NCBI RefSeq assembly: GCF_900220985.1
Contig: NZ_OCPC01000001.1
Location: 474,836-538,835 of the forward strand
DNA: 64,000 nucleotides
Reading direction: 5' to 3'
Origin: Parahoeflea halophila
GTDB lineage: Bacteria > Pseudomonadota > Alphaproteobacteria > Rhizobiales > Rhizobiaceae
The notes beneath the pieces were generated by a model. It searched no databases, was not told the DNA's origin, and saw nothing but the letters and a program-made list of their open reading frames with translations. Position numbers and translations under genes: made by a program. Shown here piece by piece: positions 2,209-59,856 of this stretch; position 1 is the stretch's first letter; each line of letters starts with the position of its first letter.

Positions 2209-2903
2209 GATCCCGCGATCCTTCGCGCCACCGCTCGCCCCAGCCATTCCGACAGCACCAGCGCCAGCAGCGCGATCGCCACCGCGATCAGCACCAGCTG
2301 CATCGCCTGCGCGTCACCGCCGGGTACCTGCAGGAAGCTGTAGATCGCCGACGGCAAAGTCTGGGTTTGCCCGGGAATGTTGGAAACGAAGGTAATCGTC
2401 GCCCCGAACTCGCCCATTGCCTTGGCAAAGGCCAGGATCGCCCCGGCTATCACGCCCGGCAGGATCAGCGGCAGTGTGACTGTGGCAAACACCCAGGCCC
2501 GCGATGCCCCCAGCGTCGAGGCCGCCTGTTCTAGCTTAGGATCGACCGCCTCGATCGCCAGCCGGATGGCGCGCACCATCAGCGGAAACGCCATCACCGC
2601 CGCTGCCAGAGCCGCCCCGGTCCAGCGGAACGCGAACACCAGCCCGAAACTCTGTTCCAGGAATTGGCCGACGGCGCCGCGGCGGCCAAATGTCAACAGC
2701 AGCAGGTAGCCGGTGACCACCGGTGGCAGGATTAGCGGCAGGTGAACAAGACCGTTGAGCGCCTGCTTGCCCCAGAACTCGTAGCGCGCCAGCACAAAGG
2801 CCACTGCCAGCCCCAGCGGCAGGCTGAGCAGCGTGGCCCAGAACGACACCTTGAGCGACAACACCACAGCGCTCCACTGTTCCGGAGTGAGCCAGTCAGC
2901 CAT
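2205..2903 (-). CDS. modB: Molybdate ABC transporter permease ModB
   Basis: Inner-membrane permease of 232 residues with several hydrophobic segments. It has the EAA-type loop characteristic of ModB/CysT permeases (QAASTLGASRAWVFATVTLP, around residue 127), which contacts the ATPase. It pairs with ModC to import molybdate delivered by ModA. Its ATG overlaps the modA 3' end by 8 bases and its TGA overlaps the modC ATG by 4, so the three genes are translationally coupled. Confidence 0.93.
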   Translation of the reverse strand: MADWLTPEQWSAVVLSLKVSFWATLLSLPLGLAVAFVLARYEFWGKQALNGLVHLPLILPPVVTGYLLLLTFGRRGAVGQFLEQSFGLVFAFRWTGAALAAAVMAFPLMVRAIRLAIEAVDPKLEQAASTLGASRAWVFATVTLPLILPGVIAGAILAFAKAMGEFGATITFVSNIPGQTQTLPSAIYSFLQVPGGDAQAMQLVLIAVAIALLALVLSEWLGRAVARRIAGS

Positions 2904-3696
2904 CGCCCTGCCCGGATAGCGGTTCGAAGCCCTGCGCTCTGAAGATTTCGGCCGCTTTCGGGCCGTTCAGCGCCTCGAGGAAGTCTGCAGCTTCCATGGA
3001 CTTGGATTGCGCCGTCAGGGCAGCCGGATAGACGATCGGGGCGTGGGTATCTTTGCTGAATTCGGCCACCACGCTGACGCTGTCATCGGCCACCGCATCG
3101 CTGGCATAGACGATCCCGAACGGCGCTTCGCCCGTCGATACCAGCGCCAGCGCGGCGCGCACATTGTCGGTTTGCGCCACTTTGGATGAAACGGCTTCCC
3201 AATGCCCGAGGCTCATCAGCGCCTCTTTGCCGTAGACCCCGGCAGGCACGGAGTCGACGAGCGCCATGGCCAGGCGCTCGTCACCGAGCATGCCGCCAAG
3301 ATCCGTGTCTCGGTCAAGCTCTATCCGTGCAACCCAGGCCCCGTGCGCAATCAGCACCAGACGATTGCCAAGCAAGTCGGTTCGCGTGCCGTCGCGGATG
3401 AGGCCTTCAGCCTCTAGATAATCCATCCAGTCAGCCGAGGCGGAAATGAAGATATCCGCCGGGGCGCCCTGCCCGATCTGCCGCGCCAGGCTGGAGCTTC
3501 CGGCATAGGAGATGGTCACCGTCTTGCCGGTCTGATCCCGCCAGTCGGCCGCCACCTCATCCAGTGCGGTTTTCAGGCTCGATGCGGCGAACACCAGCAC
3601 GTCTGCGGCACGCACCGCGACCGGTGTCATGAGACTTGCCAGAGCCAGGGCCCAGGCCAGAAGCCGTGCCGGAAACCGGAATTTCGAGACCGCCAT
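2896..3696 (-). CDS. modA: Molybdate-binding periplasmic protein ModA
   Basis: Periplasmic substrate-binding protein for molybdate (or tungstate). A signal peptide of about 30 residues ends near VRAAD, followed by the ModA start VLVFAASSLKTALDEVA and the ligand-pocket motif YAGSSSLARQI. At 266 residues it has normal length. The start is the ATG at 3696 with GGAG about 8 bases upstream; a TTG one codon earlier is less likely. It lies 165 bases downstream of soxF on the same strand. Because SoxC is a molybdenum-cofactor protein, co-expression would make functional sense, but no Mo-box was recognised in the gap. Confidence 0.92.
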   Translation of the reverse strand: MAVSKFRFPARLLAWALALASLMTPVAVRAADVLVFAASSLKTALDEVAADWRDQTGKTVTISYAGSSSLARQIGQGAPADIFISASADWMDYLEAEGLIRDGTRTDLLGNRLVLIAHGAWVARIELDRDTDLGGMLGDERLAMALVDSVPAGVYGKEALMSLGHWEAVSSKVAQTDNVRAALALVSTGEAPFGIVYASDAVADDSVSVVAEFSKDTHAPIVYPAALTAQSKSMEAADFLEALNGPKAAEIFRAQGFEPLSGQGDG

Positions 3697-3860
3697 CAAA
3701 CTGGCTCCAGACGCGTTACACCTTCATGGAGATACCAGCGCGCACCCGCTCATGGCAATGGCAACCCTGTAGGCTGCCGCAAACCTGCCGCCAGCGACGA
3801 GCTGAGAGCGGGGGCGCGCCATGCGGTTTCAGCGACCGCCCCCGGCTGTAGTGGGATTCG

Positions 3861-5135
3861 TCAGCCGAACATGTCCTCCGTTATGCCCTCGTACCAGCCG
3901 ACCGATTCCTCGTAATTGGCCTTGCGAAGTGCTGCGTCCTCGTCCATCTGGCTGACGAAGCTCTGCGTCGAAGCGATCTTGCCATCACCGGGCGCGTATT
4001 GGGCGCCGACCTTGATGCTGTCGTCGGTTTCAATCAGGCTCCAGCAGGTATTGGCATATTTCGCCGGAAACACTTTTGCGTCGACCAGATCGCCGCGGAT
4101 CGTCATCGCCGCTACCTTGGCCTGGCTGTTGGCGGAGAAGCCGGATTTCGGCATGTCGCCGGCAATACAGGCGTCGCCGATCACGAAGATCGCCTCGTCC
4201 ATGGACGAGCGCATGCTCTCGGCCTCGATCGGGCAAAATCCGCTGTCGTCGGTCAGCCCGGCGCTGCCCGCGATCTCGCCGGCCTTCTGCGCAGGTATGA
4301 TGTTCATGAATGCGCCCTTGAACGTATCCAGCCCGGTTTCGACTGTTCCGGCTGCCACGTCGACGCTCTCGATGCCGCCATGCACGTCCGGCCCGTACCA
4401 CTCGATCATGCCCGGATAATGCTTCTCCCAGCCTTCCTGGAACACACCCTGCTTCGAGAATTTCGGCTTCGGGTCGAGGATGATCACCTTGGCGTCCATC
4501 AACCCTTTGGACTTCAGCACATGCGCCATCATCGAGGCCCGCTCATAGGGACCGGGCGGGCATCGGTAGGGATTTGGCGGCGCCACCATCAGGATCTGCT
4601 GGCCGTTTTCGATCGCATCCAGTCCGGCTTTCAGCAACTTTGTCTGCTCGCCGGCTTTCCAGGCATGCGGCGCTTTCTGCGAGAGTTCCTCCGAATAGCC
4701 TTCGACCGAATCCCAGATCAGATCAATGCCGGGTGCAACAACCAGCCGGTCATAGGGCACGGTCGCGCCATCCGCCATTGTCACCACCTTGTTCTCGCGG
4801 TCGACCGCGGTCGCCATGCCGGTGACTTTGGTAATCCCGTAGCTCGATTGCAGCGTATCATAGCTGTGGGTGATCGATTCAAAGCTGCGGAAACCGCCGA
4901 CATAAAGATTTGAGTAGAAGCATGTGGTGTAATTGTCGGAATTCTCGATGAGCGTCACATCAATGGCGCCGTCGGAATCCTTGGCGATGTAGCGCGCAGC
5001 TGTGGCCCCGCCGGCTCCGCCTCCGATTACCACCACCCGCGGCTTGCCCTGGGCGCGAAGGTAGGTCGGAAGCGACAGCGCCGCAGCACTGGCTCCCGTG
5101 AAAAGTCCGAATTGGCGTCGTGTCAGCCCTGCCAT
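3861..5135 (-). CDS. soxF: SoxF, flavoprotein subunit of sulfide dehydrogenase (flavocytochrome c type)
   Basis: FAD-binding subunit of a periplasmic flavocytochrome c sulfide dehydrogenase, partner of the SoxE cytochrome encoded just upstream. The N-terminus carries a Tat-type signal (TRRQFGLFTGASAAALSLP), followed by the FAD dinucleotide-binding motif VVVIGGGAGGATAARYI. Cysteine-bearing segments (NYTTCFYSNL, NPYRCPPGPYE) and the C-terminal family domain ending GWYEGITEDMFG follow. At 424 residues it has the expected length. The start at 5135 is preceded by GGGAGGAAATC. It is the last sox gene of the run. SoxEF is not required for thiosulfate oxidation in Paracoccus but can oxidise sulfide. 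Confidence 0.92.
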   Translation of the reverse strand: MAGLTRRQFGLFTGASAAALSLPTYLRAQGKPRVVVIGGGAGGATAARYIAKDSDGAIDVTLIENSDNYTTCFYSNLYVGGFRSFESITHSYDTLQSSYGITKVTGMATAVDRENKVVTMADGATVPYDRLVVAPGIDLIWDSVEGYSEELSQKAPHAWKAGEQTKLLKAGLDAIENGQQILMVAPPNPYRCPPGPYERASMMAHVLKSKGLMDAKVIILDPKPKFSKQGVFQEGWEKHYPGMIEWYGPDVHGGIESVDVAAGTVETGLDTFKGAFMNIIPAQKAGEIAGSAGLTDDSGFCPIEAESMRSSMDEAIFVIGDACIAGDMPKSGFSANSQAKVAAMTIRGDLVDAKVFPAKYANTCWSLIETDDSIKVGAQYAPGDGKIASTQSFVSQMDEDAALRKANYEESVGWYEGITEDMFG

Positions 5136-5163
5136 GATTTCCTCCCGGGTTGCAGGTTGCAGT

Positions 5164-5898
5164 TCATTGCGGATCCAGCGAACTGAAATAGGCCGCCAGC
5201 GCCGCGATCTCCTCATGGGAAAGGTTTGCGACGCGCAATTTCATGACGTCATTTGGCCGCACACCGGTGCTGTACTCAAACAGGGCCGTAACGAAGTAAT
5301 CCTTCGGCAGCCCGACGATCGGCGGTATGCCAGCCGTTTTGCCGGACGCCTGGTGACAGGTCACGCAATCACCGGCGAGATACTCGCCATATTCGGGATC
5401 GCCTTTCATCTGCAGCACGGCATCAGCAAGGTCTCTGACCTGGCTGGAAGTGGACACCTCCCCGGCCGCCGAAGCGGAGGCGGGCTCCTGCTCGCTTGCG
5501 GTTTCAAGCCAGGAGATCAGCGCCTGCCGGTCATCGGCATCTTCCATGCCACGATAGACCATCCGGTTGCCCTTGATGAAGTCACGTGGCTTTTCGAGAT
5601 ACTTATCGAGTGTTTCCGCGGTCCAGACCAGCCCGGCGGCTCCGGCCGCGCGCATGCTTTCCGAATAGCGGAAATCCTCGAGGCTTCCCGCCACACGGCC
5701 AAACAGCCGGTCGAGATGCGGGCCGACCCCGTGTCTGGCACCCTTGCCGAGGTCGTGACACGTCGCACACGGGTCGAACAGCTTTTCGGAGCCCGTCGCC
5801 GCTGAAGCTCCGAACGGGCCGGCCATGCCGGCAAAAAAGGCAGGCACCAGCAGGCATAGCATCTTGATGCGCCCGTGGTGCCTGCCTTGATCAAGCAT
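5164..5898 (-). CDS. soxE: SoxE, diheme c-type cytochrome
   Basis: Periplasmic diheme cytochrome c of 244 residues, electron acceptor for the SoxF flavoprotein. After a hydrophobic leader there are two cytochrome c domains with heme motifs CATCH (residues 44-48) and CVTCH (near residue 182). The domains are joined by an Ala/Glu/Ser-rich linker (SEQEPASASAAGE). It lies between soxD (36-base gap) and soxF (28-base gap). The start at 5898 has a GGGAGATGA ribosome-binding region; an internal ATG at residue 13 (IKMLCLL) would also keep the signal peptide and cannot be excluded. Confidence 0.88.
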   Translation of the reverse strand: MLDQGRHHGRIKMLCLLVPAFFAGMAGPFGASAATGSEKLFDPCATCHDLGKGARHGVGPHLDRLFGRVAGSLEDFRYSESMRAAGAAGLVWTAETLDKYLEKPRDFIKGNRMVYRGMEDADDRQALISWLETASEQEPASASAAGEVSTSSQVRDLADAVLQMKGDPEYGEYLAGDCVTCHQASGKTAGIPPIVGLPKDYFVTALFEYSTGVRPNDVMKLRVANLSHEEIAALAAYFSSLDPQ

Positions 5899-5934
5899 TT
5901 CATCTCCCCTAGGGGCGCCGGACTGCCCCGCCTG

Positions 5935-7056
5935 TCAGTCGATACTGCCTCCGGAACTTTCCTCACCCTCGCTCTCCGGCGTCACGTCGATGACCTGTGC
6001 GCGCGCCGTGATCTGGACCGGTCCCGGTTTGCAGTCGCTCATGCAGGGCTCCTCACCCTTGGCGTAATGCGGCTCGTTCAGCCGGTCGTCAGCAATGAAA
6101 TTTGCCTCGTTCGGTAAACGCATCTGGGTGAAGTTTTCCTTCGACAGCTCGAACTCCTCATCCTCGACAACATCATTAAGATACATCAGATAGGCTGTCA
6201 GCGCATAGACGTCATCATCCGACAGCGAACGGGCATTGCCAAACGGCATCGCGCGGCGGACATAATCGAACACTGTCGACAGGTAAGGCCAGTAGGAACC
6301 AATAGTCTTGACCGGGCGCTCCTTGAGCAGCGAATCCTGCCCACCCGCCAGCACCGGCCAGCGCCCGGCACCCTCGCCGAAATCACCGTGGCACACCGCG
6401 CAAGCCTCGGCATAAATCGGCTCGCCCTCGGCGACCGTGCCCTTGCCGTCGGGAAGCCCGGTACCGTCGGGGCGGATGTCGATGTCCCAGGCCGCGATTT
6501 CATCCGGCATCGCCTTGCGGCCCAGCCCGAATGCGCCTTGGCTGGTTTCAACCACCAATGCTGTCTCGGTTGCGGGCTTATCGGCGGCCGGTGCCGCGGT
6601 CGCATTTTCTGCAGGCTCCGCCCCTTCGGCAGATTCGGACGCGGCCTCGGATGCAGCCGCCTGTTCTGTCGAAAAGCTCTTCAGGTAGGCGAGGATATTG
6701 TCGATATCCTCGTCTTTCTTCAGCCCGCCAAAGGCCATCTTCGTGCCCTTGATCATCGCCTTCGGGTTGGTGAGGTATTCGGTCAGGCTGTCCGCATCCC
6801 AGACCAGCCCCTCCTCGCCGGCGGCAATCATCGCCTTGGAATATTTGTAGCCCTCGGCGCCACCCGCGGCACGGCCGAAAATGTCGTTGAGTTCGGGCCC
6901 GACCTTGTGCTTGGCGCCTTCTCCGACGGCGTGGCAGGCCCGGCACTTCTTGAACACCTTCTCACCGGCATCGATATCGCCATCGGCAAACGCCGGGTTG
7001 GCAAAAGCTGTCAGGGCAAGAACGGAAAGTGCCGCGGACTTAGGAAACTTCAACAT
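5935..7056 (-). CDS. soxD: SoxD, diheme cytochrome c subunit of sulfane dehydrogenase SoxCD
   Basis: Cytochrome subunit of SoxCD, which removes six electrons from the sulfane sulfur bound to SoxY, so that thiosulfate goes fully to sulfate without sulfur globules. A signal peptide ends near NPAFA. The N-terminal class I cytochrome domain has CRACH, a low-complexity Ala/Glu linker follows (about residues 125-160), and the C-terminal domain has CAVCH. At 373 residues it matches SoxD. The start at 7056 (MLKFPKS) overlaps the soxC 3' end by 17 bases, suggesting coupled translation and a fixed subunit ratio. Confidence 0.93.
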   Translation of the reverse strand: MLKFPKSAALSVLALTAFANPAFADGDIDAGEKVFKKCRACHAVGEGAKHKVGPELNDIFGRAAGGAEGYKYSKAMIAAGEEGLVWDADSLTEYLTNPKAMIKGTKMAFGGLKKDEDIDNILAYLKSFSTEQAAASEAASESAEGAEPAENATAAPAADKPATETALVVETSQGAFGLGRKAMPDEIAAWDIDIRPDGTGLPDGKGTVAEGEPIYAEACAVCHGDFGEGAGRWPVLAGGQDSLLKERPVKTIGSYWPYLSTVFDYVRRAMPFGNARSLSDDDVYALTAYLMYLNDVVEDEEFELSKENFTQMRLPNEANFIADDRLNEPHYAKGEEPCMSDCKPGPVQITARAQVIDVTPESEGEESSGGSID

Positions 7057-8323
7057 TTTCAACCACCCCGTCAGTGTTGACGTGCCATGTCTGGATGCCA
7101 TTGTTGTGATAGATCGAGTTTTCGCCGCGTGCTGCGCGCAATTCGTTCTTGGTCGGCTGAACCAGTCCCTGATCATCGATGGCCCGCGACTGCAAAAGCA
7201 GTTCCGAGCCGTCCCAGTTGATGTCGAGATAGAAACGGTGCAGCGCCTTTGGCAGGCTCGGCCCGTCAATCCGCGCCGTTTGCCAGGTCCGCCCGCCATC
7301 GATTGTCACATCGACGCGTTTGATGGTGCCGCTGCCGGACCATGCCAGGCCGGTAATGACCAGCGGCCCTTTGCCATGGGTGACCGGTGCCTGCGGGCTG
7401 GGGCTGGTGATCACCGATTTCACATCCATCACCCAGCTGTGGCGGCGGGCCTTTCCGTTGGCGAGAAGATCAGTGTATTTCGATGTTTCCTCACGCTGTG
7501 CCCAGGGCTTGTCACCCACCTCGAGCCGGCGCAGCCATTTCACCCACATGTTGCCTTCCCAGCCGGGAACGCACAGCCGGAGCGGATAGCCCTGTTCGGG
7601 CCGAAGCGCCTCGCCGTTCATCTTGAAGGCGACGAGGCAATCATCCAGCGCCTTCTCCATCGGGATCGAGCGCGTCATCGCGGACGCATCGGCGCCTTCC
7701 GCCAGCAGCCATTTGCCGCTGGTTTTCACACCCGCCTCTTCCAGCAGATAGCGCAGCGGCACGCCGGTATAGACCACGCAATGGATCATGCCATGGGTGT
7801 ACTGGCAGCCGTTGAGCTGCGAGCCACGCCATTCCATACCGCCATTGGCCGCGCATTCGAGGAAATAGAGCCGGTTCTCACGCGGAAACCGCTTGAGATC
7901 CTCCATGGTGAAGACCAACGGCGTGTCGACCAGGCCATGGATCATCAGCCGGTGGTCGGCGGGCGCAATTGTTGCCGTGCCGCCATGATGCCGCTCGAAG
8001 CACAACCCGTTCGGCGTGATGATGCCGTCGAGTTCATGCAGCGGGGTGAAGTTGACCGACGATACCGGATCGGCGGTCAGCCACGGCACGCTGCGGCGAA
8101 CCACATGGGCTTCGAACTCCGAAGGCTTGCCATACGGTGCCACGTCGACGCCTTCGCCGAGATAACGGTTCCAATCCTGGATCTCGGTGATCAGCGGATC
8201 CCCGGCAGCGCGAGCCACACCGGTGCCTGCCGCAACTGCTGCTCCACCCAGCAGGCTGGCTTTGAGGAAGGAACGGCGCGACGCCGCCGGTTGTGCCTGT
8301 TTGGTGTCGGTCCGGTCTACCAT
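7040..8323 (-). CDS. soxC: SoxC, molybdenum subunit of sulfane dehydrogenase
   Basis: Molybdopterin subunit of SoxCD, of the sulfite oxidase family. A Tat signal (SRRSFLKASLLGGAAVAAG) fits export of a folded cofactor protein. The Mo-ligand cysteine region reads YFLECAANGGMEWRG near residue 155, and a dimerisation domain follows (IKRVDVTIDGGRTWQTA). The protein has 427 residues. The start at 8323 (MVDRTDT) is preceded by GCAGGAGGCTCTC. It lies between soxB and soxD. The molybdate transporter downstream of soxF may serve this enzyme. Confidence 0.94.
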   Translation of the reverse strand: MVDRTDTKQAQPAASRRSFLKASLLGGAAVAAGTGVARAAGDPLITEIQDWNRYLGEGVDVAPYGKPSEFEAHVVRRSVPWLTADPVSSVNFTPLHELDGIITPNGLCFERHHGGTATIAPADHRLMIHGLVDTPLVFTMEDLKRFPRENRLYFLECAANGGMEWRGSQLNGCQYTHGMIHCVVYTGVPLRYLLEEAGVKTSGKWLLAEGADASAMTRSIPMEKALDDCLVAFKMNGEALRPEQGYPLRLCVPGWEGNMWVKWLRRLEVGDKPWAQREETSKYTDLLANGKARRHSWVMDVKSVITSPSPQAPVTHGKGPLVITGLAWSGSGTIKRVDVTIDGGRTWQTARIDGPSLPKALHRFYLDINWDGSELLLQSRAIDDQGLVQPTKNELRAARGENSIYHNNGIQTWHVNTDGVVENVEVS

Positions 8324-11196: not shown

Positions 11197-11262
11197 AACA
11201 GTCTCCGTCCTCCCGGGATCTCCCTTGCGCGAAACTCCCCCGCGCCCGGGACCCTCCCACAG

Positions 11263-11586
11263 TTATTTGACTTCGATCGGTGCCTCGGCCTCGTAAACCG
11301 ACCCGTCATCATCGAGCCAGGTGAACTTGAAGGTGCCGCTGGCCGGGACCTTGGCGTTGAACTCGAAATAGGGATTGGCGGAAATCGCCGGATCCAGATC
11401 ACATTGGAACACCATCTGCCCTTCGAAGGTGCAGGTGAACTTGTTGATGATCTGACGCGGAATGGGATTGCCATCCTTGTCCTTGCGCTGGCCAGATTCC
11501 ATCTCGTGGCTTATCAGCGTCTTGATGGTGATCACCTCACCGGCCGAAGCCGACTTGGGCACCTTGATGCGTGGTTTTGATGCCAT
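11263..11586 (-). CDS. soxZ: SoxZ, sulfur carrier complex subunit
   Basis: Small periplasmic beta-sandwich protein of 107 residues that forms the SoxYZ carrier with SoxY. The sequence begins MASKPRIKVPKSASAGEVI and keeps the family segment ISHEMESGQRKDKDGNPIPR. As is normal for SoxZ there is no signal peptide; it is carried across the membrane with SoxY by the Tat system. It lies 21 bases downstream of soxY, so the two subunits are likely made together. Confidence 0.95.
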   Translation of the reverse strand: MASKPRIKVPKSASAGEVITIKTLISHEMESGQRKDKDGNPIPRQIINKFTCTFEGQMVFQCDLDPAISANPYFEFNAKVPASGTFKFTWLDDDGSVYEAEAPIEVK

Positions 11587-52296: not shown

Positions 52297-53493
52297 ATGG
52301 CGGACTACATCGACGCCAAACAGGCGGCACAACGCCTCGGCATCTCGCGGCAGACGCTTTACGCCTATGTCAGCCGCGGCCTGATAAAGGCCGTGCCCGG
52401 CAATGATCCGCGGGAGAGCCGCTATCTGGCCGCGGCTGTCGATCAGCTTGCCCAGAGCCGCCGGCGCGGCCGCAAACCGAAGGAGGTTGCCAGGGCCACG
52501 CTCGACTGGGGCATGCCGGTGCTTGAATCCGGATTGACGCTGATCGACCAGGGCCAGTGCTGGTACCGGGGGCAGAATACGGTGACGCTCGCCCGAACCA
52601 GCACCCTGGAAGAAGTCGCCGGATTGCTGTGGCAAACCCCGGCGGCAGACGCCTTTCCGCGCCGGGCGCCTGAATACCTCAAGGCCTATGCCGGCCTTCT
52701 GCACCAGGCGGAACTGGCACCCTCAAGCGAGACCCTGCTCCCCCTGCTTGCGGTCGCTGCCCGCGACGAGGCCACCGCCGCCTGGCAGGGCGATCCCACC
52801 CTGCTGGCACGCGGCTGCGGCGATCTGGTCCGCATTCTTGCCGCCGCGGCCCTGCGTCAGGCGCCCGCTTCCGCTCCGGTCCACCAGCAACTGGCGGAGG
52901 CCTGGGGCGTAGATGACACAAACGCGGATCTGATCCGCCAGGCCCTGGTGCTTTGCGCCGACCACGAACTCAATGCGTCGAGCTTCACGGCCCGTTGTGT
53001 GGCTTCGACCGGCGCGTCGTTGAAAGCGGCTGTCATTGCGGCCCTTGCAGCTCTCGGCGGCGTCAAGCACGGCGCCATGACCACCCGCGTCGAACGTCTC
53101 TGGAGCAGCCTTGATCTCAACGATCCGGCGCCAGCGCTTAGGCAGAGACTGGAGGCCGGAGAGGATATTCCCGGCTTCGGCCATCCGCTCTATCCGGAGG
53201 GAGACATTCGCGCAAAGACATTGCTCGGCGCCATCCTGCCGGATTCTCCCGAGACAGCCCGCTTTGCCGCGGCGGTCAAACAGCTGACCGGGGCCGAGCC
53301 TTCGATCGACTTCGCCCTGGTCGCCCTCAGACGCCATCTCGACCTGCCTGAAGGCGCAGCCTTTCTGATCTTTGCCATCGGCCGGTCCACCGGCTGGATA
53401 GCCCACGCACTCGAACAGCGCGGCACGGACCAGCTCATCCGCCCGCGGGCACTCTATACAGGGCCAATGCCCGGTCAGGACCAAAGGGTGTAA
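52297..53493 (+). CDS. Citrate synthase-family enzyme with N-terminal helix-turn-helix
   Basis: Fusion of 398 residues. Residues 1-40 (DAKQAAQRLGISRQTLYAYV) form a MerR/excisionase-like helix-turn-helix, followed by a basic linker (QSRRRGRKPKEVAR). The rest is a citrate synthase domain with the catalytic triad preserved: His223 in CADHELNASSF, His296 in PGFGHPLYPEGD and Asp338 in SIDFALVAL. It may be a 2-methylcitrate-type or citrate synthase, an acyl-CoA sensor, or both. GAGG lies six bases before the ATG at 52297; an ATG at 52285 is the alternative. Stand-alone citrate synthases lack the N-terminal domain. Confidence 0.85.
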   Translation: MADYIDAKQAAQRLGISRQTLYAYVSRGLIKAVPGNDPRESRYLAAAVDQLAQSRRRGRKPKEVARATLDWGMPVLESGLTLIDQGQCWYRGQNTVTLARTSTLEEVAGLLWQTPAADAFPRRAPEYLKAYAGLLHQAELAPSSETLLPLLAVAARDEATAAWQGDPTLLARGCGDLVRILAAAALRQAPASAPVHQQLAEAWGVDDTNADLIRQALVLCADHELNASSFTARCVASTGASLKAAVIAALAALGGVKHGAMTTRVERLWSSLDLNDPAPALRQRLEAGEDIPGFGHPLYPEGDIRAKTLLGAILPDSPETARFAAAVKQLTGAEPSIDFALVALRRHLDLPEGAAFLIFAIGRSTGWIAHALEQRGTDQLIRPRALYTGPMPGQDQRV

Positions 53494-53810
53494 GGTTGAA
53501 TGCAATCGGAACAGGCAGTTTCGGCCCAATGCTGCCGTTGGATCAAACTGCAACGAAGGGCAGGTACGCGCCCCAGTGGAAGCTGGCATGTTGCGAAATG
53601 GAAGGTTTTTGCAACGGTTTTTCGCACCGCGTTGTTTCAGCTAGTTAATTGTCGCATAAAAGGCAGGCGAAATTCCGCTCTGAACCCTTACCTGCTGGAT
53701 GCCCCACTTTCCTCGAATGTCCGGTGTCCAGAAAGGTCAAACGTTTGAGACCTTGCAAGTAGTTCGCTACTGGGATCACATTTGGGCAGCCTTTTTTACG
53801 GAGAAAGCAG
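53494..53810. other. Left flank of the low-G+C insert
   Basis: About 317 bases in which base composition shifts from G+C-rich to nearly balanced. No gene was recognised. It should carry the promoter of the Abi_C-like gene. No direct repeat, integrase or tRNA end was detected. Confidence 0.45.
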
Positions 53811-54584
53811 ATGTCCTATGGTGATTTCGGTGAACCAGAAATTCCTGACGACCTTTTTGAATGCGCGTTGTTCCTAAGGAATAACATTATTGGCCTGACG
53901 ACCCAGGGTGGTTCGGAGTCTGAGTACAAGTTGGCCAGAAGAAGGCTAATGGAGAACCCGGCAAGCAAACGGCTTTTGCCGAACTTTGTGCGTTTCTCAA
54001 ATGATGCCGCTTCGGTGCAGTCAGCGTTATCAAGCGTTGCGAGCGGCTCAGGTTCCTGGGCCATACGCCGAGGCCACGTTACCGAGTCTTTCATGCCACT
54101 ATTGACCTTCCTAGAATCAGGCGGCGGTGCGGCAGATGTCACAATCACAGATGGTCTTGATGGCTATGATGCTCCTGCTATCCAAGCCTTTTGGGCGAAG
54201 GCTCTGGACAGGCGAGCAACGGACCCGGACGGTGCTGTTACAGCCGCAAGTACGCTACTTGAAGAGGTCTGCAAACACATCATCGAAGACAGCGGCGCAA
54301 AGTGGGAGGCAAAGTGGAATGTTCCGAAACTTCACAGTGAAGCCGCAAAGGTATTGAAGCTCGCACCATCGCAGCACCAGGAAGAAGTGTTCAAAACGAT
54401 TTTGGGAAACTGCCAGAGCGTCGTTCAGAGTATCGGCTCTCTGCGCAACAAGGGTGGTGATGCCCATGCTGGGGGGCGCTCGCGAGTTCCATTTAAGCCG
54501 CGTCATGCCGCTTTGACGGTTAACCTGGCTGGGTCCATGGCCCTATTTCTCATCGAAACCTGGCAAGCGAGAATTGAGGAGTAA
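53811..54584 (+). CDS. Abortive infection (Abi_C domain) family protein
   Basis: Protein of 257 residues whose C-terminal half (about 135-257) fits the Abi_C domain of phage abortive-infection proteins: TAASTLLEEVCKHIIEDSG, then GNCQSVVQSIGSLRNKGGDA and HAALTVNLAGSMALFLIETW. The RNKGGDAH stretch (R212 to H219) resembles the R-N-x(4-6)-H motif of HEPN ribonucleases, suggesting RNA cleavage, though this is inference. The N-terminal half (1-130) is not recognised and may sense infection. G+C is visibly lower than in neighbouring genes, and a PIN-like gene follows after 72 bases. GGAG lies seven bases upstream. Confidence 0.8.
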   Translation: MSYGDFGEPEIPDDLFECALFLRNNIIGLTTQGGSESEYKLARRRLMENPASKRLLPNFVRFSNDAASVQSALSSVASGSGSWAIRRGHVTESFMPLLTFLESGGGAADVTITDGLDGYDAPAIQAFWAKALDRRATDPDGAVTAASTLLEEVCKHIIEDSGAKWEAKWNVPKLHSEAAKVLKLAPSQHQEEVFKTILGNCQSVVQSIGSLRNKGGDAHAGGRSRVPFKPRHAALTVNLAGSMALFLIETWQARIEE

Positions 54585-54656
54585 GGGATCAGTAAACATT
54601 AGCTGCAGCACAATCCTGAAGCAGCCATTTGCGCAAACGCAGCGAAAGGAACCACG

Positions 54657-55520
54657 ATGCTAACAATCCAACAGCGTTGGTGCAAAATTAGGGAGCATAT
54701 TCGCTTCAAGTACCTTCCAAAGATCGTTGAAGGAATGGTTCACTTGTCGACCCAAAAAGCCCGTTTTAGGCTGCGGAAGGACGGAAGAATAAGAATTCTC
54801 GTAGACAGCACTGTGCTTGGGCATGGCGTAACCCACGAAAGCAGTTGGGTTTCTACCGGTCCGAAGAAGTGGGGCGGGACCGAAATTGCGACAGGTTATT
54901 TGGCTCGGATGCCCGTCCATTCATTCGACGATGACAGTGCCGAGTATCAAAATGTCTGCTTTCTTCCTGGGATTGCGCATTTAGCGCGGACTGGGCTAGT
55001 TGGCCTTTGTACATCCGCTGAGTTAAGAGCCGAAGTTGATCGACAGCCATTGGGACGTTTCCGCGGATACGGGTTATTCAGCTACGGCATATTCAACGAC
55101 ATCCAGCTAGAATCGGTGGACGGCTTCGTTATAGAGCGAAACGCATTGAATGGCATGCCGCCCGTAAACTATGCTCAGCAGCAAAGAGATCGAATTAACA
55201 GCTCGCAAGACCCACTCTTTCATTCCCTCGTGTCATTACTGGGGGAGAGTAACAGTCAAGATGCTTGGCACTTAACCACAGCGGAAAGGCATGGGCTTTT
55301 CTGCTTCCTGACGATGGATTTCAAGTTGCTGCGCACCGTCGCGAGCCGCCGCAATCAAGAACCGCTTAGTTCACTCAAAACAAAAATTTTGACGCCTCAG
55401 GAACTTGGAATGTATTTGGAAATTCGGCCGATACAGCCGCATCTATTGAGTTATAATAAAGCGAGTTTTTTTGTTCGTTCCGATCTTGTCAGACCTCGGA
55501 AAAATCGTCGGGTGAATTGA
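54657..55520 (+). CDS. PIN-like domain protein (putative RNase)
   Basis: Protein of 287 residues with a PIN-like order of acidic residues: D50 in RILVDSTVL, E122/E126 in TSAELRAEVDR, D202 in SQDAWHLTTAE and D221 in FLTMDFKLLRTV. PIN domains are magnesium-dependent ribonucleases found in toxins and RNA processing. Residues 1-40 and about 130-185 are extra to a minimal PIN fold. It has about 50% G+C in sampled lines and carries AAAGGA six bases before the ATG. Cotranscription with the Abi_C-like gene is likely. No small antitoxin gene is visible. Confidence 0.65.
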   Translation: MLTIQQRWCKIREHIRFKYLPKIVEGMVHLSTQKARFRLRKDGRIRILVDSTVLGHGVTHESSWVSTGPKKWGGTEIATGYLARMPVHSFDDDSAEYQNVCFLPGIAHLARTGLVGLCTSAELRAEVDRQPLGRFRGYGLFSYGIFNDIQLESVDGFVIERNALNGMPPVNYAQQQRDRINSSQDPLFHSLVSLLGESNSQDAWHLTTAERHGLFCFLTMDFKLLRTVASRRNQEPLSSLKTKILTPQELGMYLEIRPIQPHLLSYNKASFFVRSDLVRPRKNRRVN

Positions 55521-55748
55521 GGCGGTCCGGCGCTGTTTCGAGTAGTGTCTTGTAAATTTGGAGTTTCGTTTCCACGCTAAGGATGATCGCTAATTCAATT
55601 GCTGCTGGCATCCACTACATCCACATAGCCTCAGCTGCACCCATTGCAACAAACGTCTGCCTTCCGCCCGTTCTTGATCGAGACGATTTTCAAGATGCAT
55701 GGAGATTCGACTTGGTGACGCCCCATCAGCCCTCGCCAAACATTCTTG
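55521..55748. other. Right flank of the low-G+C insert
   Basis: No supported gene in this stretch after the PIN-like gene; short frames match nothing recognised. It leads into the tetR relic at 55749-55820. The remaining bases to 55876 are also without a gene. Confidence 0.45.
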
Positions 55749-55820
55749 CTACGAGCTGCCCATCCCACCGGCGCACACCGCAGGCAATCTGACGATCATC
55801 AGGTCGGCGACGATATCGGC
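55749..55820 (-). pseudogene. Relic of a paaR-type TetR C-terminus
   Basis: On the minus strand this piece reads ADIVADLMIVRLPAVCAGGM and ends at a TAG. The paaR product encoded at 57906-58541 ends ADIVADLVIGGLPAVCAGEA before its last residues; 15 of 18 aligned residues are identical. A 22-base stretch (55800-55821) is identical to 57971-57992. A stop codon lies in frame three codons upstream, so only the tail of a paaR-like gene remains. It points to past recombination or deletion beside the Abi/PIN insert. Confidence 0.7.
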
Positions 55821-55876
55821 AGAGCGCGCTCACAAGCGGTTTAAGCTCCCAGCCATACCCCGGCACATGATCCGGC

Positions 55877-56404
55877 TCACGCCATCACGCGTTTCTTGAT
55901 GCGGCTCAGCCCGACCGGTGTGACGCCGAGATAGCGGGCGATCTCGTTCTGGGTCACGAGTTTCAGCAGATCCGGCGTGTTTTCCATGAGCCTCCTGTAG
56001 CGCTCCTCCGCCGAAAGACACAGAAGTTCGTACTCGCGGATCTCCTTCTTCATTGCGAAGTTCAGCAGGAAGTCGACGGCAGCAGCGGAGATTTCGGGAT
56101 CGGTTCGCACCGCCTCGTAGAGGGTGGCGAACGGCAGCTTCGTCAATTCACACGGCCTGAGGCAGAGAAGGCTGAAGCTGCAGGGCTTGCCCGCATGGCT
56201 CGCCATCAGGCTGCCGATGTGATCCCCCGGCAGGATGAAGGACTTGATGTTCTCCTTGCCATCCGCGGACAGGTAATAGGCCTTCAGCAGACCGGTCTTG
56301 ACGAAGTAAAGCGATGTGTCCTGCTCGCCTTGCCGGAACACATACTGCCCCTCCGTCCTCGAAAGCGGGATGCCGTTCTGTGCAACAAATTCACCGAGTT
56401 TCAT
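55877..56404 (-). CDS. Crp/Fnr-family transcriptional regulator
   Basis: Regulator of 175 residues: cyclic-nucleotide-type sensor domain (about 10-120; YVFRQGEQDTSLYFVKTGLLKAYY, ILPGDHIGSL) and a short winged-helix domain with LVTQNEIARYLGVTPVGLSRIKKR. It lacks the N-terminal cysteine cluster of oxygen-sensing FNR. The C-terminal domain is short compared with Crp. It is divergent from the SDR-VTT gene pair and probably controls it. Confidence 0.88.
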   Translation of the reverse strand: MKLGEFVAQNGIPLSRTEGQYVFRQGEQDTSLYFVKTGLLKAYYLSADGKENIKSFILPGDHIGSLMASHAGKPCSFSLLCLRPCELTKLPFATLYEAVRTDPEISAAAVDFLLNFAMKKEIREYELLCLSAEERYRRLMENTPDLLKLVTQNEIARYLGVTPVGLSRIKKRVMA

Positions 56405-56493
56405 GACTTTTGACCTGGGTTAATTCCAGAACCGATGCGCCCGCCTAGCTTGCCCGAAAACCGGACATCAACCAACCACGATGGACCATATCC

Positions 56494-57225
56494 ATGAACA
56501 TTACCGGCAAGCACATCGTCATAACCGGAGCCGCATCCGGCCTCGGCCTTGAACTGCTCAAGCAGCTTCAGCCCGAAAACCGGATTTCTGCCATCGCCCG
56601 CGCCTCCACTGGCCTGGAAACCCTGCGGCGTACCTTTCCGGGGGTGCAGATCCATGAGGCAGACCTTGCCGATCTGGCAAGCGTCGAGGCAGCCGCTGAC
56701 CAACTCGCCCGCGGCGGAAGAAAGATCGATGTCCTGATCAACAACGCGGCCGAGCAATACACGCCGCACTTCCTCGACGAGGATTTCCGCTATGAAACCA
56801 TCAGGCGGGAAATCGACATCAACTTCACCTCCGTGTGCTCTCTCATCTACCTGTTGCTGCCCAGCCTGCTGCAATCCGGCCCGTCCCTGATCGTCAACAT
56901 CAATTCCGGCCTCGGCCTGGTGCCGAAGACGAGTTCGGCCGTCTACTGCGCCACCAAAGGCGCGCTCAACATTTTCTCGCAAGCACTGGCGCACCAGCTC
57001 GAAGACACCAACATTCGGGTCAAACAGGTGTTCCTGCCACTGGTCGACACGGCCATGACCCGGGGAAGAGGCAAGGCGAAATTGCCGCCCGAGAAGGCCG
57101 CAGCCGCAATCATCCGCGGGATGCAATCCTCACGCCCTAACATCGACATCGGCAAAACCAGGCTGCTGCGCTTGATCCAACGCCTTTCTCCCCGTCTGGC
57201 TCAAACCATCATGAAGGAGGCATGA
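56494..57225 (+). CDS. Short-chain dehydrogenase (DltE-like)
   Basis: SDR of 243 residues with TGAASGLGLELLKQL cofactor motif, NNAAEQY and active-site YCATKGA. Sequence features resemble DltE-type oxidoreductases. The substrate is unknown. It is four bases upstream of the VTT-domain gene, so the pair is coupled, and divergent from a Crp-family regulator. Confidence 0.87.
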   Translation: MNITGKHIVITGAASGLGLELLKQLQPENRISAIARASTGLETLRRTFPGVQIHEADLADLASVEAAADQLARGGRKIDVLINNAAEQYTPHFLDEDFRYETIRREIDINFTSVCSLIYLLLPSLLQSGPSLIVNINSGLGLVPKTSSAVYCATKGALNIFSQALAHQLEDTNIRVKQVFLPLVDTAMTRGRGKAKLPPEKAAAAIIRGMQSSRPNIDIGKTRLLRLIQRLSPRLAQTIMKEA

Positions 57226-57229
57226 GCGC

Positions 57230-57889
57230 ATGAAACCGCTCCTCAAGGTCATGCTGTTGCTGGCAACAGCCTTCGCGCTTACCTTTTTCATCGGTCGTAT
57301 CCTCGGCATCCTGACGGTCGAGAATGTCCGGCACTGGCTCGAACTGGCTGGAAGCGTCGATCCGCTCTGGCTTGCAGGAACGGTCGTTGTGCTGTTGTTT
57401 CTCGATCTGTTCGTCGCCGTGCCGACGCTGACCATCACCATTCTGGCGGGGTTTTTCCTGGGTTTTCCAGCCGGTGCCGCAGCCGCGTTCACCGGCATGT
57501 CGCTGGCCGCTTTCTGCGGCTACGGGATCAGCCGGGTCTGGGGTGACCGGATCACCTCATTTCTGCTGCGCAACCCTTCCGACCGGCTGCAGATGGCTCA
57601 GGCGTTCCAGCGCAACGGCCCGGCCATGATCATGCTGTCCCGCGCGGCTCCGATCGTTCCCGAAGTCACGGCCTGCATGGCAGGCGCCACCAGAATGCCA
57701 TTCGTCCGCTATCTGGCCTATTACAGCCTGAGCACGCTGCCCTATGTGCTGATCGCGTCCTATGCGGGCTCGATCAGCTCGCCCGAGAGCCCGCAACCGG
57801 CCATCTACGCGGCCCTGGCGCTCTATGCGGCTCTATGGATCGGCTGGTACCTGTTTCGGCGCCACACCGGGAAAATTTCCGTCAGTTGA
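57230..57889 (+). CDS. TVP38/DedA-like VTT domain membrane protein
   Basis: Membrane protein of 219 residues with five to six hydrophobic segments and the VTT (SNARE-associated) core: TITILAGFFLGFPAGAAAAF, FCGYGISRVWGD, and MIMLSRAAPIVPEVTACMAG with its conserved Arg and Pro. The family is linked to phospholipid scrambling and membrane homeostasis. It is cotranscribed with the SDR gene and ends 16 bases from the convergent paaR. Confidence 0.87.
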   Translation: MKPLLKVMLLLATAFALTFFIGRILGILTVENVRHWLELAGSVDPLWLAGTVVVLLFLDLFVAVPTLTITILAGFFLGFPAGAAAAFTGMSLAAFCGYGISRVWGDRITSFLLRNPSDRLQMAQAFQRNGPAMIMLSRAAPIVPEVTACMAGATRMPFVRYLAYYSLSTLPYVLIASYAGSISSPESPQPAIYAALALYAALWIGWYLFRRHTGKISVS

Positions 57890-57905
57890 GCCGGGCTGCG
57901 AACGA

Positions 57906-58541
57906 TCACACCGGGTTTGCTTCCCGTCGATCCGCCTCACCCGCGCACACGGCCGGCAACCCTCCAATCACCAGGTCGGCGACGATATCGGCATAGGCGT
58001 CGCGGTCGACAGGCCCGCCAGGCTTGTACCAGAGGTAGAACCAGTTGAGCATGCCGAACACCGACATGGTCACCGGCGCCAGCAGTTCCGGCCGACTCGA
58101 AAACCGCTCCGGCTCGATCTCGCGCACGCTGTCGGACATGCAGGCAACCAGCCGCCGCTGCAAGGCGCGCAAATGCGCCTGGCTGTCTTCGGGTAACGAT
58201 GACAAGGCATCAAGCTGCACCTTGTGCTCGGCGTCGGAATCCCGGTAGGCGATCAGGATCGCGCGGACCAGTGCCCGTAATCGTGCGGAGGCCGAGCGCG
58301 GCTCGGCTGCGGCGGATTCCACCACCTCCACCAGAGCTGTCAGATGCGTGTCGAGGATGTCGAACAAAAGCGCATCCTTGGACGGATAGTAATGGTAGAT
58401 CAGCGCCTTGGACACGCCACAGGCTTCCGCCAGCTTGCCCATCGAGGCCCGGTCGAAGCCCTGCTCGGCAAAGAACAAGGCGGCGGTCTTGAGGATCGCC
58501 TCTCGTTTGGCCTCGTGATCCTTGGCGATGGTCCGGGCCAT
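57906..58541 (-). CDS. paaR: TetR-family regulator of phenylacetate degradation (PaaR-like)
   Basis: Regulator of 211 residues with helix-turn-helix FAEQGFDRASMGKLAEACGVSKALIYHYYPSKDAL and the ligand domain of TetR proteins found in paa operons, which respond to phenylacetyl-CoA. It lies four bases downstream of paaK and is the last gene of the minus-strand paa run. Its likely operator is the palindrome at 61199-61210. The end of its C-terminus is duplicated as a relic at 55749-55820. Confidence 0.85.
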   Translation of the reverse strand: MARTIAKDHEAKREAILKTAALFFAEQGFDRASMGKLAEACGVSKALIYHYYPSKDALLFDILDTHLTALVEVVESAAAEPRSASARLRALVRAILIAYRDSDAEHKVQLDALSSLPEDSQAHLRALQRRLVACMSDSVREIEPERFSSRPELLAPVTMSVFGMLNWFYLWYKPGGPVDRDAYADIVADLVIGGLPAVCAGEADRREANPV

Positions 58542-58545
58542 CGCC

Positions 58546-59856
58546 TCAGGTCCGGTTCCTGTTGTCGACCACGCGCTTGGCCTTGCCTTCCGAGCGCGCC
58601 ACCTTGCCGGGCTCGGCGACGTTGATACGTGCGGTCACCCCGACCACGCTCTTGATGTGGTGCGCAAGCTCCTTGCCCGATGCCGTTCGCGCCTCCTCGC
58701 TCGCATTCGCCGCGGTGCATTCGACATGAACCGTCATGTCGTCCATCCGGCCGCTTGAAGTCAGCTCGATCTGGAAATGCGGTGCCAGCCCGTCGCATTT
58801 TAGGATCTGTTCCTCGATCTGGGTCGGAAACACATTGACCCCGCGCAGGATGATCATGTCGTCCGAGCGGCCGGTGATCTTCTCCATCCGCCGCATCGAC
58901 CGTGCGGTCCCCGGCAGGAGCCGGGTCAGGTCGCGGGTGCGGTAGCGCACCATCGGCAGCGCCTCTTTTGACAGCGTGGTGAACACCAGCTCGCCGATCT
59001 CGCCATCCGGCAGCACCTCTTCCGTCACCGGATCGATCACCTCGGGGTAGAAATGATCCTCCCAGATATGCAGCCCGTCCTTGGTCTCGACGCACTCGTT
59101 GGCAACGCCCGGCCCCATGATTTCCGACAGCCCGTAGATGTCCACCGCATGCATGTCGAAGGCCTGTTCGATCTCGCTGCGCATCGAATTGGTCCACGGT
59201 TCGGCGCCGAAGATGCCCACCTTGAGCGAGCTTTCGCGCGGATCCAGCCCCTGACGGCGGAACTCGTCAAGGATCGAGAGCATGTAGGACGGCGTCACCA
59301 TGATCACCTGCGGCCTGAAATCGGTGATCAGCTGCACCTGCCGCTCGGTCATGCCGCCCGAAACCGGCACCACGGTGCAGCCGAACCGCTCCGCGCCGTA
59401 ATGCGCGCCAAGCCCGCCGGTAAACAGCCCGTAGCCGTAGGATACATGCACGATCTCACCCGGGCGCCCGCCCGAAGCGCGGATCGAGCGCGCCACCAGA
59501 TCCGACCAGATATCGATGTCGCCCGCAGTGTAGCCCACGACTGTCGGCTTGCCGGTGGTGCCCGACGAGGCGTGAATCCGCACCACCTTCTCGCGCGCCA
59601 CCGCGAACATGCCGAAGGGATAATTGTCCCTCAGATCGTTCTTCGTCGTGAACGGATACTTCGACAGGTCGGCCAGCGTCTTGAGATCATCCGGATGCAC
59701 GCCCTTGGCGTCGAACGCTGCCCTCGTGTGCGGCACATTCTCGTAGGCATGGGCCAGCGACCATTTCATGCGGCTGAGCTGCAGCGCGGAAATCTCGTCA
59801 CGCGACGCGGTCTCGATCGGATCAAGGCTTGCCCTGTCGGGCGTCAAATCAAGCAT
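58546..59856 (-). CDS. paaK: Phenylacetate-CoA ligase
   Basis: First enzyme of aerobic phenylacetate degradation: phenylacetate + ATP + CoA to phenylacetyl-CoA. It has 436 residues, the usual PaaK length. Motifs are ASSGTTGKPTVVGYTAGDID (ATP loop), YGLSEIMGPGVANECVE and the C-terminal domain with GRSDDMIILRGVNVFPTQIE. The ribosome-binding region GGAGGCAGGAGG is strong. It lies downstream of paaI. Confidence 0.95.
   Translation of the reverse strand: MLDLTPDRASLDPIETASRDEISALQLSRMKWSLAHAYENVPHTRAAFDAKGVHPDDLKTLADLSKYPFTTKNDLRDNYPFGMFAVAREKVVRIHASSGTTGKPTVVGYTAGDIDIWSDLVARSIRASGGRPGEIVHVSYGYGLFTGGLGAHYGAERFGCTVVPVSGGMTERQVQLITDFRPQVIMVTPSYMLSILDEFRRQGLDPRESSLKVGIFGAEPWTNSMRSEIEQAFDMHAVDIYGLSEIMGPGVANECVETKDGLHIWEDHFYPEVIDPVTEEVLPDGEIGELVFTTLSKEALPMVRYRTRDLTRLLPGTARSMRRMEKITGRSDDMIILRGVNVFPTQIEEQILKCDGLAPHFQIELTSSGRMDDMTVHVECTAANASEEARTASGKELAHHIKSVVGVTARINVAEPGKVARSEGKAKRVVDNRNRT

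Follow-up and report, generated by a model that had tools for sequence, protein, structure and literature searches.

We found that two adjacent genes of Parahoeflea halophila, here called A and B, are probably two autonomous single-gene defence genes of the RNase type that came to lie side by side by chance in one acquired insert. They lie in a stretch of 64,000 nucleotides of contig NZ_OCPC01000001.1 (positions 474,836 to 538,835 of the forward strand), which we call the window and whose numbering is used below, in a genome of 4.19 Mb. The original prediction, made from this DNA alone, suggested that the pair could be one defence or toxin operon. That proposal was not borne out: each family was found without the other, and the only loci with both were the window's own copies. 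What it said of the layout was correct, with two open reading frames (ORFs) on the + strand separated by 72 bases. The main features are as follows.

53811..54584, + strand: gene A, 257 amino acids (aa), ATG start; helical N-terminal part and C-terminal Abi_C/HEPN domain; phrog_23253
54162..54581, + strand: HEPN domain of A, approximately residues 118-257, the range under the best structure matches
54444..54467, + strand: R212-x6-H219 motif of A, placed by its invariance in aligned relatives
54657..55520, + strand: gene B, 287 aa, ATG start; likely PIN-fold protein of an unnamed family
54804..54806, + strand: D50 of B, directly after the first strand of the predicted fold
55032..55034, + strand: E126 of B, placed by conservation, with E122 as a weaker candidate
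55260..55262, + strand: D202 of B, placed by conservation and position in the predicted structure
55317..55319, + strand: D221 of B, placed in the same two ways

Neighbourhoods of the two families

All collected loci (numbered with L) were scanned with three profiles, made from A, from its C-terminal half and from B, and each place was counted once. An Abi_C gene was found in the examined flanks of none of the 21 other B places, and B in those of none of the 61 other A places. The flanks of B were mostly 6 kb (shortened upstream in L060, L062, L063 and L069) and those of A 1.5 to approximately 9 kb, and in many viral contigs A lies at or close to the contig end; because of these limits, the absence of the partner is firm for close neighbours only. 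No gene family was conserved next to B throughout the 21 other loci when ORFs of at least 60 aa were compared. The recurring neighbours were confined to L059 and L060, which are one locus in two species, to a TIR gene shared by L051 and L058, and to a conjugation-type gene shared by L057 and L058. Likewise, the gene downstream of A differed in 13/13 other A places compared. The closest relative of A (approximately 80% identical, genome G110, one of 151 genomes searched) has opposite-strand genes on both sides, and no B was found in that genome.

Four viral contigs carry a gene of 290 aa, similar among them, that begins 72-74 bases after A (L083, 5756-6628; L095, 5757-6629; L101, 5759-6631; L115, 408-1280). 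Its size and the gap made it a possible B, which was rejected, since the B profile did not match it and the sequences that were read were unrelated. The copy in L083, the only one scanned, had no match in PHROGs. This gene is a candidate for a real partner of A in that viral-contig lineage.

B itself was found in several kinds of mobile surroundings. Using a loose pattern for attC-like sites with 20 plain shuffles as the control, we found 10 sites in L065 of Vibrio sinaloensis (shuffle mean 0.1), 3 in L064 of V. furnissii, 2 in L005 of plasmid pFORC4 and none in L063 of Photobacterium. In L065, an array repeat (5828-5963, 63% to its reference copy) finishes at the start of B and an attC-like site starts at 6838, the stop of B, which indicates that B is alone in its cassette. 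Further along the same array, 11212-11274 is a 63-base repeat (89%) of the 3′ end of B. In L064, a site at 5843-5963 finishes at the start of B and none was found between B and the next gene; in L005, the start of B coincides with a site at 7873-7964, and none was found after B. Both Vibrio genomes have an integron integrase that passes the curated cut-off, while none of the 14 control genomes does, and none was found in pFORC4 at that cut-off. In L063, B lies between two families of 103-base repeats (44-146 and 1021-1123) that the attC pattern did not match.

Other copies of B lie near defence-type genes. In L052, 13 bases separate B from a preceding DUF6602 gene; the locus (approximately 2805-6864) also holds a HORMA gene (205 bits, approximately 3785-4282) and another gene with a cyclase-like motif, and is probably a cyclic oligonucleotide-based antiphage signalling system (CBASS). 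TIR-type PDC-S35 genes are present in L051 and, by similarity, in L058. In L056, which also has a weak AriA match, the end of an AAA_15 gene coincides with the first possible start of B, and in L062 a UvrD-type helicase gene adjoins B on the opposite strand. A PADLOC scan of 80 of the 159 listed B neighbours, which left out L063, L064, L065 and other genes, also returned single matches to a cyclase, to NucC and to AriAB for the set as a whole. When 20 neighbours were scanned singly, 17 had no PADLOC match. Ordinary genes were found near B as well, for example one for a carbon-nitrogen hydrolase (L061) and a trypsin-like one (L054).

Features of the two proteins

A is of the AbiJ/Abi_C HEPN type, a kind already known. 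As had been predicted, its C-terminus is of the Abi_C type (PF14355; residues 172-249, E = 2e-19, 69.8 bits against a cut-off of 24), and Abi_C was matched by 24/24 members of the A6 set of relatives (E up to 0.1). PADLOC matched AbiJ over residues 135-249. The N-terminal half differs from this family in that it had no Pfam match and the N-terminal part of the PADLOC AbiJ model was unmatched. The stretch R212-N-K-G-G-D-A-H219, which the original prediction compared to a HEPN motif, lies where it was placed, and R212, N213, D217 and H219 are invariant in 24/24 aligned sequences; R212 and H219 are also invariant in 11/11 of another alignment. Judging from these alignments, the conservation of this stretch exceeds chance. 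HEPN motifs are defined as R-x4-6-H, which the R-x6-H of A fits. The best matches of the structure model were HEPN folds over approximately residues 118-257, the best Foldseek E value being 0.22 and not significant, and no credible match was found among PDB sequences. The model gives firm support to a HEPN fold for A; an abortive-infection RNase activity is predicted from analogy with this type of protein. AbiJ has been listed among HEPN proteins with a conserved motif, varied N-terminal domains and some solo members (PMC3710099).

PIN domains typically carry three or four conserved acids in a set order. In B, the acids named in the original prediction are at the positions given there: E126, D202 and D221 are invariant in 20/20 aligned sequences, and D50 and E122 are conserved in at least 90%, E122 being missing in L004/L057. 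Two loci are absent from this alignment: L060, which duplicates the gene of L059, and L070, which seems to be damaged in its 3′ part. When L070 is added (21 rows), E126 and D202 remain invariant and D221 falls to the 90% class. The conservation of these acids, as aligned, exceeds chance, and D50, E126, D202 and D221 follow the PIN order in both alignment and predicted structure. The best Foldseek E value of the B model was 0.055, which is not significant, and Z stayed below 8. VapBC-type complexes were among the best structure matches, together with RNase P-type and exosome entries. Of the two folds expected at the outset, HEPN in A was upheld firmly, and PIN in B is likely only. The predicted PIN core is interrupted by insertions at approximately residues 58-86 and 130-172.

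Searches did not give B a name. No credible match was found among PDB sequences and nothing usable in a viral structure library, and B is unnamed in Pfam, PADLOC, NCBIfam and PHROGs, as scanned. A SIR2 match in PADLOC (1/20 B members, E = 0.017) was judged to be chance, and three further Pfam families were hit by one member each (E = 0.076-0.28). Four relatives (L066, L067, L068 and L069) have an extra C-terminal region of approximately 100 residues common to all four. In two distant relatives of 266-271 aa (L118, 976-1773; L119, 1033-1845), the region with E, D and D is preserved in the order of PIN domains, which suggests a wider unnamed B family.

The insert and the spread of A and B

Both genes have a lower G+C content than their surroundings, as originally noted (A 0.53 and B 0.49, compared to 0.62 in the window and 0.66 in the upstream citrate-synthase-like gene), and the same holds for third-position G+C (0.55 and 0.51, compared to 0.75 in that gene). 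Two features mark the setting.

53494..55765, no strand: accessory insert of G+C 0.51 that holds A and B; its ends are approximate, the right one placed by the TetR remnant
55766..55824, - strand: TetR remnant of 59 bases, 83% to 57938-57996, which belongs to the 3′ end of the TetR gene 57906-58541

Six congeners matched the citrate-synthase-like gene over its full length, and 5 of them were read at this place (L042-L046; G005 was left out). In 5/5, the interval between this gene and the TetR-PaaK-PaaI genes holds neither A nor B; it measures 20 to approximately 880 bases, with other short DNA inside in 3/5. In the window these genes are 4.4 kb apart, and the TetR remnant seems to divide the extra DNA in two, the first part being the insert with A and B and the second, with a G+C of 0.60, carrying Crp-like genes and genes that we take to be SDR- and DedA-like. 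The position of the remnant between the two parts suggests that another insertion or a recombination took place at this site, the order of these events being conjectural.

A simple scan of 53400-56000 gave no promoter-like site (shuffle mean 1.8) and 4 terminator-like sites, which is about shuffle level (mean 3.1); the gap between A and B had neither. A scan of 53000-58600 against Rfam gave no match, and no tRNA was found in the whole window.

The spread of both genes is patchy. Among the 151 genomes searched, the window's own included, B was found in 3 and A in 14, and neither had a match in 17 congeners. B also went unmatched in 50,697 phage records (E up to 0.01) and in viral contigs, and DNA searches with two B genes against 5426 E. 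coli genomes gave no match. One E. coli record (NZ_CP141089.1, 4.9 Mb) is labelled as a plasmid in the collection and is, judging from its size, probably a chromosome. Going by organism names, the hosts of B are presumably alpha-, beta- and gammaproteobacteria. A literature search of listings and abstract openings found no publication on B or on the pairing of A and B.

Competing readings and their meaning

Several points weigh against two independent defence genes. The RNase and defence activities of A and B are predicted, and neither structure model reached a significant Foldseek match. The defence genes near B may be no more frequent than at random loci. Eight B loci besides the window have, within 150 bases upstream, a same-strand gene other than a cassette neighbour; as these genes all differ, B may share transcripts with a variety of genes. 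Finally, the insert seems to carry just A and B, as the joint acquisition of one module would give.

It is unlikely that one or both genes act in RNA processing, have some other role outside defence or are passengers undergoing decay. The RNase P-type and exosome entries among the matches of B and the apparently broken relative in L070 would fit such a reading. However, both reading frames are intact with their key residues conserved, the surroundings are mobile and of the defence type, and the patchy spread with no match in the congeners argues against it. Compared to the protein-only RNase P HARP, B has a lower Z, no PDB sequence match and a patchy accessory distribution.

A genuine two-gene module, formed as a rare recombinant from two RNases or from an RNase and a regulator, is improbable as well. 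The shared strand, the short gap free of promoter- or terminator-like sites and the common low-G+C insert are in its favour, but the partner is missing from the examined flanks of every other A and B place, the closest relative of A is flanked by genes on the opposite strand, and B stands alone between two cassette repeats in L065. That A is an antitoxin or regulator of a PIN toxin B in the manner of VapBC is very improbable: A lies upstream of B, as VapB normally does of VapC, and VapBC-type complexes resemble the B model, but there is no conserved upstream gene in the 21 other B loci, the two families did not co-occur in the examined flanks of other places, and A is HEPN-type with an intact motif rather than a small DNA-binding antitoxin. 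With 287 residues, B also has roughly double the length of the VapC chains (136-137 residues).

If A and B are two independent defence genes, A would dimerise as other AbiJ-type HEPN proteins do, its N-terminal helical part (approximately residues 15-117) may respond to infection, and its R-x6-H site would then cut RNA, so that growth of the infected cell stops. B would be a metal-dependent PIN ribonuclease acting through D50, E126, D202 and D221 without a partner antitoxin, and may be held inactive by its own chain, perhaps by the two insertions, until infection. Here the genes may share a transcript, and neither would be expected to need the other. A comparable case is DS-3, described as one protein with a PIN domain split between the N- and C-terminus, no antitoxin, protection against phage that is lost on changes of catalytic residues, and possible auto-inhibition (PMC13092281). 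By that description, B would resemble DS-3 in being one protein with a likely and interrupted PIN core and no conserved partner, while the split between the two termini sets DS-3 apart.

It is quite possible, although we stop short of calling it probable, that B represents a new family of PIN ribonucleases, marked by the motifs T-H-E-T-x-W and Q-P-x-G-R-x-x-G-Y, that act against phages on their own. Such genes would spread singly via integron arrays, via plasmids and through the defence loci that belong to other systems, and would stack with effectors to which they are unrelated, HEPN genes among them. Together, these results replace a supposed HEPN and PIN operon with two single-gene candidates. 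B occurs in several proteobacterial classes yet is unnamed in the four libraries scanned, so annotation with them would miss it. If B protects alone, it would be a new family beside DS-3 among the single-protein PIN defences.
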